In this document: in pieces, positions 10,861-34,200 of the stretch
Layout: each line of letters begins with the position of its first letter
Position numbering within the stretch: the stretch's first letter is position 1
Assembly (NCBI GenBank): GCA_021292105.1
Contig: CM037862.1
Span: 32,333,245-32,397,244 of the forward strand
Direction of reading: 5' to 3'
DNA: 64,000 nt
From: Anadara kagoshimensis
Taxonomy: Eukaryota; Mollusca; Bivalvia; Arcoida; Arcidae
Translations under genes and position numbers: made by a program
Notes under the pieces: generated by a model
Database searches by the model: none
What the model was told of the DNA's origin: nothing
The model's input: only the letters and a program-made list of their open reading frames with translations

Positions 10861-12100
10861 ATATGAGAAAGTATAATAATAAGCATGGAATGTCAGAATT
10901 ATAAACATAGATATATACAAATTATGCAGTAAATATAAATATTTGGCTTAATTATGTGCACCTTTTAAATAATATATATATATTCTTAACTGGATTGGAT
11001 GATATACATGTTTTATTACATATACCTCGTATGTTACATTAAACAGGGGGAAGAAACTCCTTGTATGTATTATTTATACAGACAGATGACTATTTACAAC
11101 ATACATTTACAAAATATTAATAAAAAAAACAATCAGTGTCGGACAGGATTTAAATTTGTTCTACAAGTATTATTATTTTATTGCTCAAACTTATCCTGCT
11201 TGACAAACTACGCAATTTTGGCTGCATTGTCATTGTGTATAAACTTCTCTACCATCCAAAAATGAATAAAATAAAAAAAAATTTGTCATTCCTATACATG
11301 TAAAATAACTTCAAATTAACATGAAAATGTCCTGCTATCCCTGACCTAATGATGAAGAACAACACAGTACCAAAAGTTCATCCATTTTATTTTTTGACAC
11401 TTTGCAGCTAGCCAGAAAGGAGTTGCCTACCTTTCCAGATACATTGCCTCACATCCCCGGTGTTTTCACATTTTTCAGATCCCATTTTACATGTATTTCT
11501 TATAACAAAATTCAATTTAAATGAAAAGTAAAAGGCCAGCCCTTTAAGAATTTTTCTTATTTTGTAAATTGTGATTTTCACTACTATGTACCTATTCTCA
11601 TTATTTACTGTAAATCTGGAAGATTTTGCATTTGTTTTAGTTTTGCATATATTATTTGCAAGAGAAACAAAAGTGGGAAATATAAAACGTTTGTGAATAT
11701 TTTGATATATTCCCGTTGCATTTTCACTGACCAACATCTGACAGCGTGAAATTAATACAGATGAATATCTTGATATAACTATATTCACGAAAATTAGGTT
11801 ACACAAAAATTTACAGTACATATTTTTCTCCTCATCAGCACCAGATTTCTGCTGTACTTACATCAGCACCAGATTTCTGCTGTACTTACATACAGTAGAG
11901 TAACAATGAACTTTGACTTAAGTCCAGCATTTCTTGCTTCAGAATATTAAAGAGTGAAATCAAGATCATAAAAACACACAATGACAAGAATAGGTACATC
12001 ACCATTATAGTGTAACTACAAAACAAAGATAGATTTCAACATGTATAGCAAGAAACGGTACACCACCATTATGGCTAAACTACAAAATAAAGACAACTGT
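10861..12100. other. Gene-free AT-rich stretch
   Basis: Nothing recognisable except a tandem duplication of ATCAGCACCAGATTTCTGCT plus GTACTTAC near 11838-11890. The open frame around 11408-11821 has no domain or splice support. Confidence 0.55.
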
Positions 12101-22200: not shown

Positions 22201-24271
22201 CATGTGAAAATATGATTTTTCTATCCATAATGAAAATTTTCATTTATGATTTCTAGCTAAATGCTTTTTTTGATTTTTATTATTGAGTCATACAGCCAAT
22301 CCCGTTATCGCCATAGAGATATTGAATTGCTGAAAAGTGATCCAGAGAATCAGTAGAAACTATTGTAACAGAAAGAAACTACCACAAGTTATGCATGTTA
22401 TGATAACTACAGAAGAAAGAGCGAACAAATTAGTAGTGTTTTTAATTTGTAGATGACCAGTACTTGGATATTGCATAATATGTACATGTACTCCCAAACT
22501 GGGCTCTTAATATTTCCAAGTTAGTTGGATTGACTGAAAGGGGATTTACTTCCAAGTAAAGAATATGTTAGTTTATATAACTTGCATAAGGATAGTGCTA
22601 TCCATGTAGCAGACACTGTTGTCAGCGACATGATCAACATTTTTATGATCTATGACTTTGACTTTGATGATCTATATTTGAAGTGCCACACATTACCGAA
22701 GACTGATTATCATAAACTAATGCTAAAATGGATTATTATGTCAATCTTACCTTCCACATTTGCATTGTAGTATTCATCCTGAAAAACAAATATTTCAAAT
22801 ACCATTATTATTATTAATACAATGTGTTTTCTTTCATATTTCTAGAAGGTTACAGAAAACAAGAATTACTCATTATTATAAGCCTTGGCTTGCCTACTTT
22901 GATCATAAGGTAATTGCACGGTAAGAAAGTATAGACTAGAATATTTTCTTGGGCAACAAATGCCGAAACATTGCCTATAGAAGATTTGACCTTGTGACCT
23001 TGACATTTGGCCTGCACATCATTGCATGTTGATGTACTTGTTTGCCGTGTTTGATCAAGATACATCCGTAGCTGTGAAAGTTATGGAATGGATACAATAT
23101 TAGGACAGACAGCATGAGTCCTATATCCCTCAACTTCATTTTAGGGATATATTTATTTAAAGCAAAGTACCAACTGTACCAATTCTTGTATAGCAATATT
23201 TATAGAGATTTCATCAATCAAACAATCTTTCAAAATCTTATCAATAACTGAATAATAACAAAAACATGTCAAAATAAATTTATAACATACCAGGTTTTCT
23301 ACATTAGCATATACATTGCCCTCTATCACATCTATATGTTTTAGGAAGAGGTCTCTTATTGCTATGTGTGCCATCATATACTGTTCCTGAAACACAAAAA
23401 ATACACAGAGGTCTGAAAATCTTGAATTACAAAAACAAAATTAATGTTGTTTTTAAGTAAAATTGAATTTATTCAACAAGTTGAATAGTTTTTTATTCAA
23501 CAAACCTTGCATGAAATACATAAACAATTTATTCAATGATTTTGAAGTGCTTACCTTTCTGGAGCACCTGACCTCACTTACCTTTCTGGAGCACCTGACC
23601 TCACTTACCTTTCTGGAGCACCTGACCTCACTTACTTGGTAGAAGTTAATATGTTTAACATGTTTAACTTTATTTCTTAGTTTCAAAATTTTCACTATGC
23701 CTTGGGATTGTGATTTGGATATAGATAAGTATGTTTGTTTTGAACAATGAATATTAAATATGAATATAAAATTTGTTTTACTGTTTGAATTTTTTCAAAT
23801 TTTTGTATACCACTAAGTTACCATAACTTATTAGATTTCTCTAAACACATGCTTATCTGTTGCCTTGTTATCCTCCGCCTTTCAAAGAAAGCAGGGGATA
23901 TTGAATTTGAGTTTCTGTTTGTTTGTCCTTCGGTCCATCCAAAATTCTTGTCTGCAAATTCTCCAAAACTATGAAGTACTATTTCACTAAACTTAGTGCA
24001 ACACATCAAAATTAGTAGGAGATGTGGACAAAGCCGAGTTGGTTTGCTCCTTTTTCCTGGGAGTTATGGCCCTTTGACTGAAGAAAAAGAACCTGCTGAG
24101 ATCCTATTACACTTAATTTCCTTGATTCACTGTGTTCTTGAGACATCACCATTTGCACATATTGTACATATGTATGACATTATGACTATAAATTTAGAGA
24201 GAGAGAGAGAGAGAGTTTTCTGTTGAAGAGAAACAAGAGGAATATTTTCTGTTGAAGCAGAGACAAAAGGA

Positions 24272-24310
<39 letters not shown>

Positions 24311-25161
24311 GTTTACTTACTAGTGTCTGTATCATGGACTGTCGTTCTCTCTCACTCTCTCTCTTTCTCTGTGGTATACTTACTAGTGTCTGTATCATGG
24401 ACTGTCGTTCTCTCTCACTCTCTCTCTCTTTTTCTGTGGTATACTTACTGGTGTCTGTATCATGGACTGTCATTCTCTCTCACTCTCTCTTTTTCTCTGT
24501 GGTATACGTACTGGTGTCTGTATCATGGACTGTCGTTCTCTCTCTCTCTCTCTCTTTCTCTGTGGTATACTTACTAGTGTCTGTATCATGGACTGTCGTT
24601 CTCTCTCACTCTCTCTCTTTCTCTGTGGTATACTTACTAGTGTCTGTATCATGGACTGTCGTTCTCTCTCACTCTCTCTCTCTTTTTCTGTGGTATACTT
24701 ACTAGTGTCTGTATCATGGACTGTCGTTCTCTCTCACTCTCTCTCTTTCTCTGTGGTATACTTACTAGTGTCTGTATCATGGACTGTCGTTCTCTCTCAC
24801 TCTCTCTCTCTCTTTTTCTGTGGTATACTTACTGGTGTCTGTATCATGGACTGTCATTCTCTCTCACTCTCTCTTTTTCTCTATGGTATACGTACTGGTG
24901 TCTGTATCATGGACTGTCGTTCTCTCTCTCTCTCTCTGGTATACTTACTGGTGTCTGTATCATGGACTGTCGTTCTCTCTCACTCTCTCTCTCACTCTCT
25001 CTCTCTCTCTCTGGTATACTTACTGGTGTCTGTATCATGGACTGCCAATGTTCTCTCTCTCTCTCTCTCTCTGTGACACACTTACTGGTGTCTGTATCAT
25101 GGCCTGTCATTGTTCTCTCTCTCACTCTCTCTGTGGTATACTTACTGGTGTCTGTATGTTC

Positions 25162-25202
<41 letters not shown>

Positions 25203-28200
25203 GGTATAATACTTACTGGTGTCTGTATCATGGACTGCCGTTGTTCTCTCATTCGTTTAATTATTTCATATAGATTAAAATTTTCTTCTAATCTCTGTAA
25301 AACAATGTAAAAGGTTTTTTTTTAAATTTATAAACTGGATTTACCAATGGTTATTTATTGGACAATTTGACATTGGAAAAAGCCTTGTTCTCTTGAGTAA
25401 CATGTTCATGGATAACTTAATTATATCATTTGATTTTTTTAAGATTTTCATCATACGGTAGTTATTACTACTTTAGTAACCCGTAATCAAAATATGAGGC
25501 GGCTTTGAGTATTGTTTATTGTATACTTACCCCCCCACCCCTCCCCAACAACAACAACAATTAACATTTTCAGTGCTTTCAAAGTACATGTAATGATGTA
25601 TACTAAACACACATTGTATACTTACCCCTGTTTTTAGCATTTCTTAAGCATAATAAATGGCACATATTGTACACTTACCCCTGATTTTAGCATTTTCCAA
25701 GCATAATCAATGGCACATATTGTACACTTACCCCTGTTTTTAGCATTTTCCAAGCATAATCAATGGCACATATTGTACACTTACCCCTGTTTTTAGCATT
25801 TCTCAAGCATAATCAATGGCTCACTGTACACTTACCCCTGTTTTTTTTAGCATTTTCCAAGCATAATCAATGGCACATATTGTACACTTACCCCTGTTTT
25901 TAGTATTTCCAAAGCATAATCAATGGCTCACTGTACACTTACCCCGGTTTTTAGCATTTCCCAAGCATAATCAATGGCACATATTGTACACTTACCCCGT
26001 TTCTAGCATTTCCCAAGCATAATCAATGGCACATATTGTGCACTTACCCCTGTTTTTAGCATTTCCCAAGCATAATCAATGGCATATATTGTACACTTAC
26101 CCCTGTTTTTAGCATTTCCCAAGCATAATCAATGGCACATATTGTAAACTTACATCTGTTTTTAGCAGTTCCCAAGCATAATCAATGGCACATATTGAAA
26201 CTTACCCCTGTTTTTAGCAGTTCCCAAGCATAATCAATGGCATATATTGTACACTTACCCCTGTTTTTAGCATTTCCCAAGCATAATCAATGGCACATAT
26301 TGTAAACTTACCCCTGTTTTTAGCATTTCCCAAGCATAATCAATGGCATATATTGTACACTTACCCCTGTTTTAGCATTTCCCAAGCATAATCAATGGCA
26401 CATATTGTAAACTTACCCCTGTTTTTAGCAGTTCCCAAGCATAATCAATGGCACATATTGTACACTTACCCCTGTTTTTAGCATTTCCCAAGCATAATCA
26501 ATGGCACATATTGTAAACTTACCCCTGTTTTTAGCAGTTCCCAAGCATAATCAATGGCACATATTGTAAACTTACCCCTGTTTTTAGCAGTTCCCAAGCA
26601 TAATCAATAGCACATATTGTAAACTTACCCCTGTTTTTAGCATTTCCCAAGCATAATCAATGGCATATATTGTACACTTACCCCTGTTTTTAGCATTTCC
26701 CAAGCATAATCAATGGCACATATTGTAAACTTACCCCTGTTTTTAGCAGTTCCCAAGCATAATCAATGGCACATATTGTAAACTTACCCCTGTTTTTAGC
26801 AGTTCCCAAGCATAATCAATGGCATATATTGTACACTTACCCCTGTTTTTAGCATTTCCAAAGCATAATCAATGGCACATATTGTAAACTTACCCCTGTT
26901 TTTAGCAGTTCCCAAGCATAATCAATGGCACATATTGTAAACTTACCCCTGTTTTTAGCATTTCCCAAGCATAATCAATAGCACATATTGTAAACTTACC
27001 CCTGTTTTTAGCATTTCCCAAGCATAATCAATGCCACATATTGTACACTTACCCCTGTTTTTAGCATTTCCTAAGCATAATCAATGGCACATATTGTAAA
27101 CTTACCCCTGTTTTTAGCAGTTCCAAAGCATTATCAATGGCACATATTGTACACTTACCCCTGTTTTTAGCATTTCCTAAGCATAATCAATGGCACATAT
27201 TGTAAACTTACCCCTGTCTTTAGCAGTTCCCAAGCATAATCAATGGCACATATTGTACCTGTTCTTCCACAACCAGCACTAAAATAAAACAAATTAATAA
27301 GTTATTGACATTATCGTCTTTCCATCCTCACAATGATAATGATAAACAGTGGGAATAATTTTTAAACTCAACATGAATGTCGACACTGCCAAAAATGACA
27401 CCCAGAAGAAGGTACACCCACTATTAATGTATATAACTTTCTTGTGAGATTTTAATTTTGGCTATACAATGTTCTGACATGCTTTATACCTTCATGTTTT
27501 GTATTTGTAGAAATTGTAGACAATGTTTGTAAAATGACTTTGGATATAAGGTAATATTTTTATAAACCAGAAGTAGATGTCAAATAATTGTATATATGAT
27601 CACAACCAAAAGTAGGGAAGGGAGGGAAGGCAAAACAATTGATACTGATATGACTAGATGTATCATTATAGAACAGTAATTTATGTATTTTATATCAGTT
27701 TTGTAGCAATTAATTCCATTGACTAATGGGCAACCAAGTGACACAAACTAATGGCGTGTATGAACCGACCTAGCAATACACGAGCTGACATTGGACCAAG
27801 CAGGCAATAAACAGTTATGCGCCTTCAACGAAAAGCCCCTATGGTCATAATTGGGTTTGGTCCAATGATATAAAAGATATAGCTACTTATGTACAAGGCA
27901 CTATGAAGATTTATGGACATTCCATTGGCCCTGCCTGCAGGTCAGGCTGTATCAAAGTGATGGTCCATATCCTGGCTCTTGACCAGTCCATAAACCTTCA
28001 TATTGCCCTGTGCATAAGTAACTATAGCTGAAGTACTTGATAATTAAACACATTACTATTTTTGTAGCTCCTGATGGTAACTTTATGTCATTACATATGA
28101 GCACAGTTTTATATAATGATGGTGGAGATTGCCAAAAAAAACATGTGGTGTATGGGGGAAAATTTTTGTTTCATTATTAAAGATTTTGTTTTGTTATTAT

Positions 28201-31200
28201 ATTTCATATAGATAATTTTAAGTCATTACAATATATCATACTTATAATCAAAATGGCTTGGTCAATTAAACTCATAATCAATGGTCATTTAACACATTGA
28301 AAAGTACTATAAACATGATTAAATATATATACATGCATATTTTTTTACACTTTCTATTTTTTATATTTAAGGTGTCTAATTACAGAGTATTTTCATGCAT
28401 GACATGATGAAATTATAACTCTGTAGGCTCTAAATCTTGGAGGTATAATTGTGAAAAGGGCTGGCCTATGTATCACTGTGCATTTCATCAACTAGGTTAA
28501 TATCCCACTCAGGCATATCCTAGTGTGAGAATGTTGTCAGTTAAGTTAGGTTAGAGGTTTTCTCCAGGCACTCATGTTTCCATCCAGCATTCAAGAACTA
28601 ACTGCCTCAATATAAAAGAGAGAGTCTTGACCAGAGCATAAAATATCATTACTCCATTCTACTCCACATACACACAGATCTACTAGCTTAAAGTGTACTT
28701 ACCTACAATGAACAACAACAGGGGCAAAATCTTTGTCCCGTTGTCGCATAACACGCATCTTAGCTATCATTTCTAGGATAACGTCCACATCATCTGGGAT
28801 TCCGTGATCAGGCCAACCTGTGTATTGGAACTGTGTTATCCGTAACGGTCCCTCAGTTCCTTTGTACACATCCATACATCTTTCTATACAATCATCAGCA
28901 TTGGCTAGGTTACTCTCATTTACCTAAAATGTGAAATACACTGCTTAAATACATGTTATGTTTCAAATATTGGTAGCCAAAATAAGTATCTAGCTAATAA
29001 TTTCTGAGAAATTCTAGAGAAAAGTAACCTATTTCAGCTAATGTGTGAAAAAATACTTTAAAAACAACAATATTTCACAAATTTGAGAAATTTGGCAACC
29101 GGGTACTTATAATTTCAAATTTGTGGAAATCTAGACAATAGATAGCGAAAGTCAGCAAGAAGATTTCAGAAAATTCTGATTTACATCATAATATTTATTA
29201 TGAACAACAATTCTTCAATAATTCAAAGTACTTTAATCAACAGAACAATTTACAAATCAATGTAAAAAGTGATGCAAGATGGTTGATTTTGGAGATGATG
29301 TGTGTTGTAGACATGTCAAATACATTATAAACCAAAGCTCAGGCTTAAACAGGAATAACACCGTGATTTAAAGATCAAAACTTAAACCTAAAATGGACTC
29401 ATAAGAAGGGTATTCTGATGCCGTTACAGAAATCTGAAATAAATTTTTTATCATTAAATATTATTATTATTATTACTATTATTATTATAATTACCAATTT
29501 AACTCTGATATCATTAAATGTTGCCTCTTCACTTGCATTTTCAGGCCAGTAGCATGCACATTTTTTCTGCAAGAGAAAAATTGAATTTTCAAAAAAAAAT
29601 CAAAGCTAAGTAAGCTAATGTGGAATTGACTGAGCTGCTTAATCAAACAGTGTAGTGCCGTATTTCTGTTAAAAATTTGCATAATTTACTAGGTTAACCT
29701 CCCCATTAGAGAGTGAAGTGGAATGGAGTTATGGTTTTTCATGCCCCTGTCAAGATTCTTCCATTCATATTGAGGTTGTTAGTTCTGTGATGATGCAGGA
29801 AACTCTGCAGGAAAGAGTGCCTTGAGAAAACCACCAACCTTAAGCAAGCAATTAAATTACAAATTTCTTCACACTGTCATTGTCTATTGAAAGTTCTGGT
29901 TTCATTAACCATTCCAGAACTGAACACCTGAATAAAGTGGATTTCCTCCACAATTCCAGAACTGAACATCTGAATAAAGTGGATTTCCTCCACAATTCCA
30001 GAACTGAACACCTGAATAAAGTGGATTTCCTCCACAATTCCAGAACTGAACACCTGAATAAAGTGGATTTCCTCCACAATTCCAGAACTGAACACCTGAA
30101 TAAAGTGGATTTCCTCCACGATTCCAGAACTAACCATCCGAATAAAGTGGATTTCCTCCACAATTCCAGAACTGAACACCTGAATAAAGTGGATTTCCTC
30201 CACAATTCCAGAACTGAACATCTGAATAAAGTGGATTTCCTCCACAATTCCAGAACTGAACACCTGAATAAAGTGGATTTCCTCCACAATTCCAGAACTA
30301 ACCATCTGAATAAAGTGGATTTCCTCCACAATTCCAGAACTGAACACCTGAATAAAGTGGATTTCCTCCACAATTCCAGAACTAACCATCTGAATAAAGT
30401 GGATTTCCTCCACAATTCCAGAACTGAACACCTGAATAAAGTGGATTTCCTCCACGATTCCAGAACTAACCATCTGAATAAAGTGGATTTCCTCCACAAT
30501 TCCAGAACTGAACACCTGAATAAAGTGGATTTCCTCCACGATTCCAGAACTGAACACCTGAATAAAGTGGATTTCCTCCACAATTCCAGAACTGAACATC
30601 TGAATAAAGTGGATTTCCTCCACAATTCCAGAACTGAACATCTGAATAAAGTGGATTTCCTCCACAATTCCAGAACTGAACATCTGAATAAAGTGGATTT
30701 CCTCCACAATTCCAGAACTGAACACCTGAATAAAGTGGATTTCCTCCACAATTCCAGAACTGAACACCTGAATAAAGTGGATTTCCTCCACAATTCCAGA
30801 ACTAAACATCTGAATAAAGTGGATTTCCTCCACAATTCCAGAACTAAACATCTGAATAAAGTGGATTTCCTCCACAATTCCAGAACTAAACACCTGAATA
30901 AAGTGGATTTCCTCCACAATTCCAGAACTGAACATCTGAATAAAGTGGATTTCCTCCACAATTCCAGAACTGAACATCTGAATAAAGTGGATTTCCTCCA
31001 CAATTCCAGAACTGAACACCTGAATAAAGTGGATTTCCTCCACAATTCCAGAACTAAACATCTGAATAAAGTGGATTTCCTCCACAATTCCAGAACTGAA
31101 CACCTGAATAAAGTGGATTTCCTCCACAATTCCAGAACTAACCATCTGAATAAAGTGGATTTCCTCCACAATTCCAGAACTGAACACCTGAATAAAGTGG

Positions 31201-34200
31201 ATTTCCTCCACAATTCCAGAACTAAACATCTGAATAAAGTGGATTTCCTCCACAATTCCAGAACTGAACATCTGAATAAAGTGGATTTCCTCCACAATTC
31301 CAGAACTAACCATCTGAATAAAGTGGATTTCCTCCACAATTCCAGAACTGAACATCTGAATAAAGTGGATTTCCTCCACAATTCCAGAACTGAACATCTG
31401 AATAAAGTGGATTTCCTCCACAATTCCAGAACTGAACATCTGAATAAAGTGGATTTCCTCCACAATTCCAGAACTAAACATCTGAATAAAGTGGATTTCC
31501 TCCACAATTCCAGAACTAAACATCTGAATAAAGTGGATTTCCTCCACAATTCCAGAACTAAACACCTGAATAAAGTGGATTTCCTCCACAATTCCAGAAC
31601 TAAACATCTGAATAAAGTGGATTTCCTCCACAATTCCAGAACTAAACATCTGAATAAAGTGGATTTCCTCCACGATTCCAGAACTGAACACCTGAATTAA
31701 GTGAAAGTTTCTTCACTAGATGTCAAACAAGATCATTTCACTCCACATTTCAGAATAAATCTGGTTGTAGGCAGTTCCACTAGATAACTCATCTGTATGG
31801 TGGCGTCATTTTACAACAATGTTTGAATAAAAATTCCACTAATAACCAATGATCGATGCATTAAATATATTTATAATTGTCCAAAACATTTGTTTAATTG
31901 GGGGGAAAAAAACAGTTTAATATCACATTTTATAAAGATGTGTTTTTGAAACTTATCACTTTGAATTTTTTTCAACAAAATTAAATGGATAACAATCCGA
32001 ATATATTGTTAAATTATTTTTTTAAAAATAATGTTTTTTTACAAAAAATCCTCTAAAAGTTCATTATAAAGATTGGTCCATTAACTTAACATTTGACACT
32101 AACACTAGTGCAAATACTGGGGTTACAATAATAACTCTTTTTCACTTTGCTCTGGTGAGCTCACAATGTACTATGTATATTTCCCATGTTTCCATAGTGT
32201 ACACTTAAAAAAAGAGCTTGCCTGCACATCCGTTCTATGAATAAAATATCATAACCAAATAAGCTAAATTTTGTCATTTAAAATTCTTTAGTCAAACCAT
32301 TTATTACTGGACTCTTACTCTTTCACATCGGAACTATACTACATTCTAGACAAGCTTTAATAAATTTTACCTTTCCCATTTCAACTTCTTTACATGCCAT
32401 AATAACAACCTTGACCTTGTACTGCCATAACATCCTCCAGTAATCATTAAGTGTATGTGGTAATGGACCTTGTGAAGCAATATAGGCGGCCCTGCCCATA
32501 GGACCCTGCATTGTAATAAAAATAAAATTGTAAATTATAATCTAATCAAATGGCCTAATGTGCTAACATTACATCCTCCAGAAATCATTGAAAATGTAAG
32601 GTACACACTAAGAAATTTGTGAGGCAACTTAGGTTGCTCAACTCACATGCAGCACAGGATGTTGTTAGAAACATGTCAATTAATTCAAAAATGTGATGCA
32701 TAATTTAGGGTCAATGTTACACAAACTGCAACCACAAGGGTGAAAATAGGATGATGAAAATAATCAAATCTAAACTATCATAACGACAAATATCAATTTT
32801 AACAATCACTGCTTAGAATGATGGCTAGTTCAGTGGTTGAATATGTACATGCTCACAAGTTTTGTTTTCTTATTTTTTCACAGTCCCTGACAAAACAGTT
32901 GTTTCCTAGGCATTGCTTCTAAATATCAAGAGTCCAAAGGACTCCAATAATGTTGAAATAAGAGCCTAAATATAATCATGGCTATCTACACTTGATTTTA
33001 AATATCACTATTATATTTCAAGTGAGTGGGAGTACTCTTAACAATAGGAGGAAGATACATTGAAGAAAAAGAAGGAAGTTACTGTTACAATATTCATTAA
33101 ACAAGGGGCATGAAATTTCCTGTTGTCACAATTGTTACCAATTTGGTAAACTTTAAGAGACCTTTATCATAAAACTGTGTCAGAGAAGCAGAAATCCTGC
33201 ATCAGAAAACTCCCTGATTTAAGTGGCACTATGCATTTAAGTTTTCATTAATAAAGAAAACAATATAACCATTATGTATACTATAAATTTAATATAAATT
33301 TGAGTGATCTATTTGAAGGTTTTTCTCAATATAAGTGATTAGCACATCTTTATTTTAGAGCACCAACTGTTTGTTTGTACTCAGAGTCCCTTATGGGTAA
33401 TTTTAGCACATTTTTATTTTAGCGGAAAGATCTTGCTAAAAGCAAAAGCACTAAAATAAAACAGCCACTAAAATTTCACAGTTTACAGTACCAGATACTT
33501 CAACATGTGTATAATATGTCCCAATAAAGACAACATTTTTCCACTGTATAGACATAGAGAGTATATAGTATCAAAGATGCACATAAAATTTTTGTTATGA
33601 CTAAGCTAAAGTAACTGAATAATAACAAAAAATTATTCAAATTTGTTAGTTTTCTTAAGGAAATTTCCCATGTTACACTGTCACAAACACAATGACACTA
33701 ACAGTAATATCTCTGCTTTCCACATCAATCACTCAAAATTATATTATATATACTGTATATATATATATATAGTATTGTGTAGGTGGTCACAATGAAAGTT
33801 TACTGTTTAATATAGGTTCAGGACAGAATGACAGGGTCATATTTATTATGCTGTCAAATACAAAATCAGTTATCCTCAATTTATGATTTTTTCAGTAGTA
33901 TTTAACAATAAACTGACATTGAAAATTTAAATTGAACATGAAGTTTCACTTTGATACAGATCTTCAAATACATATAAAAGCCATCATGCTTCACAAAGTT
34001 TGCAATATCCTGATCATGTTGATAGACAAACTAATAAGAATTCTTAAAGTAATTGACACCTTGCTAAAATTACTCTTTATAATTTGAATAACTTGTAAAT
34101 GAAAGTCTATATAAAGGATGGTCTAGAGGTGTCTGTTCCTTGGGTATTTCTGTCCATGATATTATGTTTGCATGTTTAACTTCCTCAGATCACAGGAAAT

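Follow-up and report, generated by a model that had tools for sequence, protein, structure and literature searches.

Tandem duplications that span exon/intron boundaries have been described in amphioxus under the name of 'mirages'; they are found at both the 5' and 3' edges of exons and differ in copy number between haplotypes, those of BflGb6 carrying 6 and 3 units (PMC3087553). The Adh3 data and reverse transcription PCR (RT-PCR) of globin transcripts indicated that mirages do not interfere with regular splicing (PMC3087553; PMC3902484). Repeated donors are also known from intron 7 of the human factor VII gene, where 37-bp repeats follow one another, the donor sits in the first, and no donor but the one furthest upstream is reported to be used (PMC6627357). 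Here we describe an array of this general kind in a 64,000-nucleotide stretch of the genome of the bivalve Anadara kagoshimensis (contig CM037862.1, positions 32,333,245 to 32,397,244; henceforth the window). This array, which we term array 1, lies in an intron of a PTPN12-like phosphatase gene directly behind the exon encoding the catalytic P-loop, and its 53-bp unit combines the tail of that exon with its 5' splice site. It is most probably an exon-boundary minisatellite of the mirage type, representing the share falling to exon edges where minisatellites are born at a high rate throughout the genome, without a donor-specific process or a selected function.

The host gene lies on the minus strand of the window, where 8 of its exons were recognized (Table 1). 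The P-loop exon was identified through a 34-residue piece matching PF00102 with an e-value of 7.6e-5, and a tblastn comparison with human PTPN12 gave 82.6% over 23 residues. In the tail region of the protein there are matches to Tegillarca granosa (58%, covering 56% of the query) and to another source (91%, covering 54%), and the catalytic region has matches in oysters, a pattern that points to a pteriomorph bivalve, perhaps an ark clam. Tandem Repeats Finder (TRF) reported array 1 with a period of 53, 31.2 copies and 93% matches; the count includes the real exon tail, and 30 extra copies sit directly 3' of the real P-loop exon on the minus strand. Each unit comprises 45–47 exonic and 6–8 intronic nucleotides, the edge being ambiguous by 1–2 bases. 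An earlier note on this DNA had taken the monomer to be a host exon/intron boundary, amplified into about 30 additional copies immediately after the real exon, and both statements are borne out. It had further claimed that every extra copy carries AGGG/GTAAGT (the slash marking the splice junction). This stands for the GTAAGT hexamer, which is seen in 31 of 31 copies and in 30/30 of the decoys, but not for the longer GGGGTAAGT, which is present in 30 of the 31 copies and in 29 of the 30 decoys; ACAGGGGTAAGT is retained in 27 of the 31. A donor of strength equal to that of the real one is found in 29 of the 30 decoys, and the claim that the decoys match the real donor holds to this extent. Inspection of the unit by eye revealed no acceptor with a pyrimidine tract, and all copies lie inside one intron.

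Upon translation, any of the 30 decoys of array 1, if used, would end the reading frame after 37 residues, taking the first codon of the exon as the start of the count. Given that decoy use would result in a truncated phosphatase, a working gene would require that the exon-proximal donor be used in the majority of transcripts.

As read from the genomic sequence, array 1 fits the definition of a mirage in its structural features: the unit crosses an exon/intron boundary, the array adjoins the authentic exon and the splice signal is repeated. Like the amphioxus mirages, it also has ends that have escaped homogenization. The differences lie in the host, which is a bivalve, and in the scale, a single array reaching 31 copies at one locus and 48 at another (see below) as against the 6 and 3 of BflGb6; for the amphioxus mirages, splicing was in addition checked by RT-PCR. 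With factor VII intron 7, array 1 shares a donor in each repeat with the real one in first place, although the unit is shorter there (37 bp versus 53 bp) and the gene is a different one. The Rogers model of intron gain by tandem genomic duplication, in the form in which it is cited in PMC3087553, likewise involves the duplication of coding DNA with its splice signals; unlike in that model, the bivalve copies lie within one intron and have given rise to no new intron. Another parallel is provided by the internal tandem repeats at human exon-intron boundaries, where minisatellite expansion alters gene structure in recent paralogs (PMC2812944). Those human repeats change exons or are put forward as a source of new introns, whereas the bivalve exon is unchanged. 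The view of the earlier note that the array stands apart from known kinds is therefore not sustained, the amphioxus mirages (PMC3087553) and the repeated donors of factor VII (PMC6627357) being comparable. Among the matches listed in the literature searched, no paper described bivalve mirages, and a search that combined minisatellite, bivalve, intron and splice site gave 0 papers.

We searched the 1.115-Gb assembly with 29 bases of the array 1 unit, allowing up to 3 mismatches, and used the reversed pattern as a control. There were 65 matches, all on the same strand and all either at the window locus or at a second locus (L021, C6:34128151-34130588) 1.77 Mb away from it; the reversed control gave 0 matches in the assembly. 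The second locus aligns with the window locus over 6.2 kb at 98.99%, and in the 1 kb upstream the two show 994 identities, 0 mismatches and 12 gap positions. It carries both array 1 and the array in the next intron that is described below as array 2, with 48.2 and 14.4 copies of the respective units as counted by TRF. Array 1 thus has 31 versus 48 copies at two near-identical loci, be they alleles or paralogs. Unit maps of array 1 revealed that the first unit, the last seven units in order and blocks between them are common to the two loci, while the middle is rearranged. The word CTAAAGACAG occurs in the real exon copy only, i.e. in 1/31 copies at the window locus and in 1/48 at the second locus. 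Pairs of PTP exons with near-equal scores, each pair on a single contig, were seen at C6:32.36/34.13 Mb, C15:26.00/27.09, C3:55.17/55.87, C19:38.88/39.56 and C16:43.42/43.51; they lie 0.1–2.7 Mb apart, some of them inverted, and are either unpurged haplotypes or recent duplications. Because several such pairs exist, the window locus and the second locus may be unpurged alleles, or else the result of a recent duplication.

The exon that follows the P-loop exon carries an array of the same type, array 2, which was absent from the earlier note. Its typical unit reads CAGTCCATGATACAGACACCA/GTAAGTAT, with a GTAAGT donor, followed by a GA-rich intron piece, and its donors, including the real one, comprise 13 GTAAGT and 2 GTACGT. 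It begins at the junction of the exonic word GAGAGAAC with a (GA)n tract in the intron. The first three decoys of array 2 were translated and each of them reaches a stop.

Exon-edge arrays are not special to the P-loop exon or its gene, contrary to the emphasis of the earlier note on that exon, as they are found at the next exon and at exons of other genes. A search for triples of AGGTAAGT yielded 6 array families among the matches listed, and the 5' flank was read for all 6. Three of them adjoin an open exon, namely L023, whose exon encodes an MMR_HSR1-type GTPase (E 9.9e-7), and L025 and L027, whose exons are without a Pfam match and were recognized from an open frame and splice signals; in the other three (L022/L035, L024 and L026) no adjoining exon was seen on the 5' flank. 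A random sample of twenty-five 10-kb stretches, 250 kb in all, contained at least one array adjoining an exon that a domain match supports, namely that of L011, which has a 77-bp unit in 4 copies including the real one and belongs to a PLAT exon (PF01477, E 1.7e-6). The edge words of the L027 and L011 arrays are short or unclear. Besides L011, the donor-flagged array of L017 was inspected and showed no evident adjoining exon; two arrays in L006 and one in L020, flagged by looser words only, were left out. A donor search at longer spacing added 7 further families among the matches listed, and the unit at C1:9712959 in one of these reads as ZIP-like, if weakly (E 0.001, 18.8 bits versus a cut-off of 35.1).

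Acceptor-side arrays had been expected to be absent, an expectation that we dropped. In the first 21.5 Mb of C1, 12 families of acceptor arrays were recognized by eye among the matches listed, and of the 10 whose 3' flanks were read one adjoins an exon (L039). This exon encodes part of CtBP, with a PDB match of E 1.8e-22 over its whole 43 residues. At positions 1-237 of L039 (C1:10155711-10155947), a 42-bp unit made up of a pyrimidine tract, AG and the first 16 nucleotides of the CtBP exon is repeated ahead of that exon, so that the real acceptor comes last. This is the mirror case of array 1, and both decoy acceptors tested give a stop. No exon was evident on the 3' side of six acceptor-flagged arrays in the random sample.

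The frequency of such arrays can be set against the general repeat content of the genome. The 250-kb sample holds 21 arrays with units of 20–130 bp and at least 2.9 copies, with a summed unit length of 700 bp or 0.28%, which is the share that a random site should meet. With an assumed ~200,000 introns, this would correspond to several hundred donor-side arrays genome-wide. At the shorter spacing, raw matches to AGGTAAGT numbered 712 + 884 = 1596, versus 461 + 457 = 918 for the reversed word TGAATGGA. Counted by locus among the matches listed, there were 6 families of AGGTAAGT arrays (7 places) in 80.1 Mb and 16 families of TGAATGGA arrays (19 places) in 248.2 Mb, the families being grouped by eye and 5 low-complexity TGAATGGA places being left out. 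With 44,761 occurrences of AGGTAAGT versus 55,194 of TGAATGGA, about 4.2 AGGTAAGT families are expected as compared to the 6 seen. Because array families of the two words are about equally common by locus, there is no clear donor-specific process at the shorter spacing. Donor-specific amplification was rejected as a candidate, the raw excess being carried by a few large arrays and the excess by locus being small. Strict donor words likewise showed no excess, either in the arrays of the random sample (2/65 versus 1 in the control) or in those of the window (4/18 versus 2), and looser words showed none in 85 arrays (donor-like 5 versus 9 in the control, acceptor-like 10 versus 21).

If array 1 arose as an exon-boundary minisatellite, its first duplication may have come about by slippage or microhomology-mediated exchange between the exonic word TACAATATGTG and the intronic word TACAATGTGTG, which agree at 10 of 11 bases and mark the two edges of the repeat; the first duplications of arrays 1 and 2 were probably both seeded by short repeats. 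Given that CTAAAGACAG is confined to the real exon copy at both loci, subsequent growth probably took place among the intronic copies, through slippage, unequal exchange or block duplication, while the real exon copy stayed outside. The array would be tolerated if the spliceosome takes the exon-proximal donor and the mRNA is normal, and it would be carried along because that site is the one used. Neutral expansion, named as one option in the earlier note, agrees with this reading.

It should be noted that several observations weigh against it. The use of the first donor at this gene is something we only infer. Arrays are present on 2 of the 8 recognized exons of one gene, which is above the per-site rate of 0.28%; the window was itself selected, array 2 lay outside the original finding, and the two arrays may reflect local instability or chance. 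The locus-level control amounts to only 6 versus 16 families, grouped by eye among the matches listed. At the longer spacing, raw matches to donor arrays came to 821 + 1432 = 2253, versus 387 + 433 = 820 for the reversed word, with one array supplying about 44 of the 100 places listed. Hexamer counts gave a mixed picture of donor retention across arrays: in array 1, no hexamer is better kept than GTAAGT, which shares the top place at both loci (themselves related by ancestry), and in L023 it ranks first once AT-repeat words occurring several times per unit are left aside; L025 and L033 have many other hexamers at its level, and in array 2 and L027 other words surpass it, some of the surpassing words occurring more than once per unit. 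With this mixed result, selection to keep the decoys was dropped as a candidate. The retention of the hexamer in array 1 and L023 and the raw excess of donor arrays over the reversed word, together with the equal strength of 29 of the 30 decoys and the presence of arrays in two neighboring introns, would favor a functional donor array, in which splicing of the intron is promoted or delayed, or premature polyadenylation is held back, by the numerous U1-binding sites, and the amount of phosphatase made is adjusted through the copy number. We consider this unlikely: counted by locus at the shorter spacing, donor arrays show no clear specific excess; in array 2 and L027, other hexamers are better kept than that of the donor; the acceptor array at CtBP indicates that donors are not the sole edge hit; and the window locus and its near-identical counterpart differ by half in copy number. 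A broader proposal appears quite improbable, namely that arrays at exon edges are widespread in this bivalve lineage and that dozens of equal donors behind an exon shift co-transcriptional splice timing, the array serving as a copy-number dial whose length is a fast-evolving quantitative trait differing between individuals.

The early stop just past the P-loop that each of the 30 decoys would bring also suggests regulated truncation, with early-stop mRNAs that lower the amount of the phosphatase or shorten it. However, 23 of the 25 relatives examined (from other species or sources, 18 of the 23 being named as bivalves) contain the P-loop, with a single copy of the motif in each, and we attach very little probability to this explanation. 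Tandem arrays are error-prone in assembly, and the several near-identical PTP exon pairs, each on one contig, suggest unpurged haplotypes; copies could in principle have been inflated or invented. Against this, the units differ in an ordered way, and the array ends as well as both arrays are common to two loci, making an artefact very unlikely, although the exact copy number of the array is uncertain. The possibility of an artefact concealing a single copy, raised in the earlier note, is likewise made unlikely by the second near-identical locus, which has the same array in a different number of copies. Tandem repeats abound in bivalve genomes, and 7.5% of the 250-kb sample lies within repeats of period 20 or more, against which background a dispersed satellite or transposon might have been inserted after the exon by chance. 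The unit, however, begins inside the P-loop exon, and the 29-base search at 3 mismatches located it at the two near-identical loci only; this leaves a dispersed element with a negligible likelihood, and the assertion of the earlier note that the array is no standard satellite or transposon is upheld.

The features of the window are collected in Table 1. No exon matching the 27-bp array in the intron of array 2 was found, and this array recurs at the second locus. Another intron of the same gene contains, at 29911-31703, a 42-bp array of 42.7 copies whose unit, judged by eye, is open in at least one frame. A 28-bp repeat of 2.1 copies at 11833-11891 of the window contains GAT/GTAAGTACAG, which is both donor-like and acceptor-like.

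Table 1. Exons of the PTPN12-like gene and associated repeats, in window coordinates; a slash marks the actual or presumed splice junction.
Feature	Position	Strand	Remarks
Exon part	~38075-37884	-	PTPN12-like gene
Exon part	~34427-34353	-	PTPN12-like gene
Exon part	~32511-32365	-	PTPN12-like gene
Exon part	~29569-29501	-	PTPN12-like gene
Exon upstream of P-loop exon (WPDHG ... VVVHC)	28923-28703	-	both splice signals placed; donor TAG/GTAAGT; without array
P-loop exon (PTP P-loop)	27278-27212	-	both splice signals placed; donor GGG/GTAAGT at 27211
Array 1, 53-bp unit, 31 copies including real exon tail	25608-27258	-	TRF; unit = exon tail + 5' splice site
Exonic word TACAATATGTG, proximal repeat edge	27247-27257	-	possible seed of array 1
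Intronic word TACAATGTGTG, distal array edge	25608-25618	-	possible seed of array 1
Exon after P-loop exon	25294-25217	-	both splice signals placed; donor CCA/GTAAGT
Array 2, 63-bp unit, 15.1 copies including real one	24283-25251	-	TRF; tail + donor of exon 25294-25217
27-bp x 3.2 perfect array with AAAG/GTAAGTGA	23550-23635	-	same intron as array 2, 163 bp before next exon
Exon downstream of both arrays	23386-23291	-	both splice signals placed; donor CTG/GTATGT; without array

The locus provides a natural experiment on splice-site choice, in which the real donor is followed by 30 or 47 near-equal copies and the catalytic domain would be cut short by any of the 30 decoys tested, while CtBP offers the acceptor-side mirror with the real site last. 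Should splicing be clean in both cases, the choice would be decided by closeness to the exon body, and not by strength or the order of transcription alone. Taken together, these arrays appear to reflect an error of copying that recurs, mostly does no harm and has to be disregarded by the splicing machinery. Their presence in a bivalve carries the amphioxus phenomenon over to an animal group far removed from it, and points to minisatellite load as its source.
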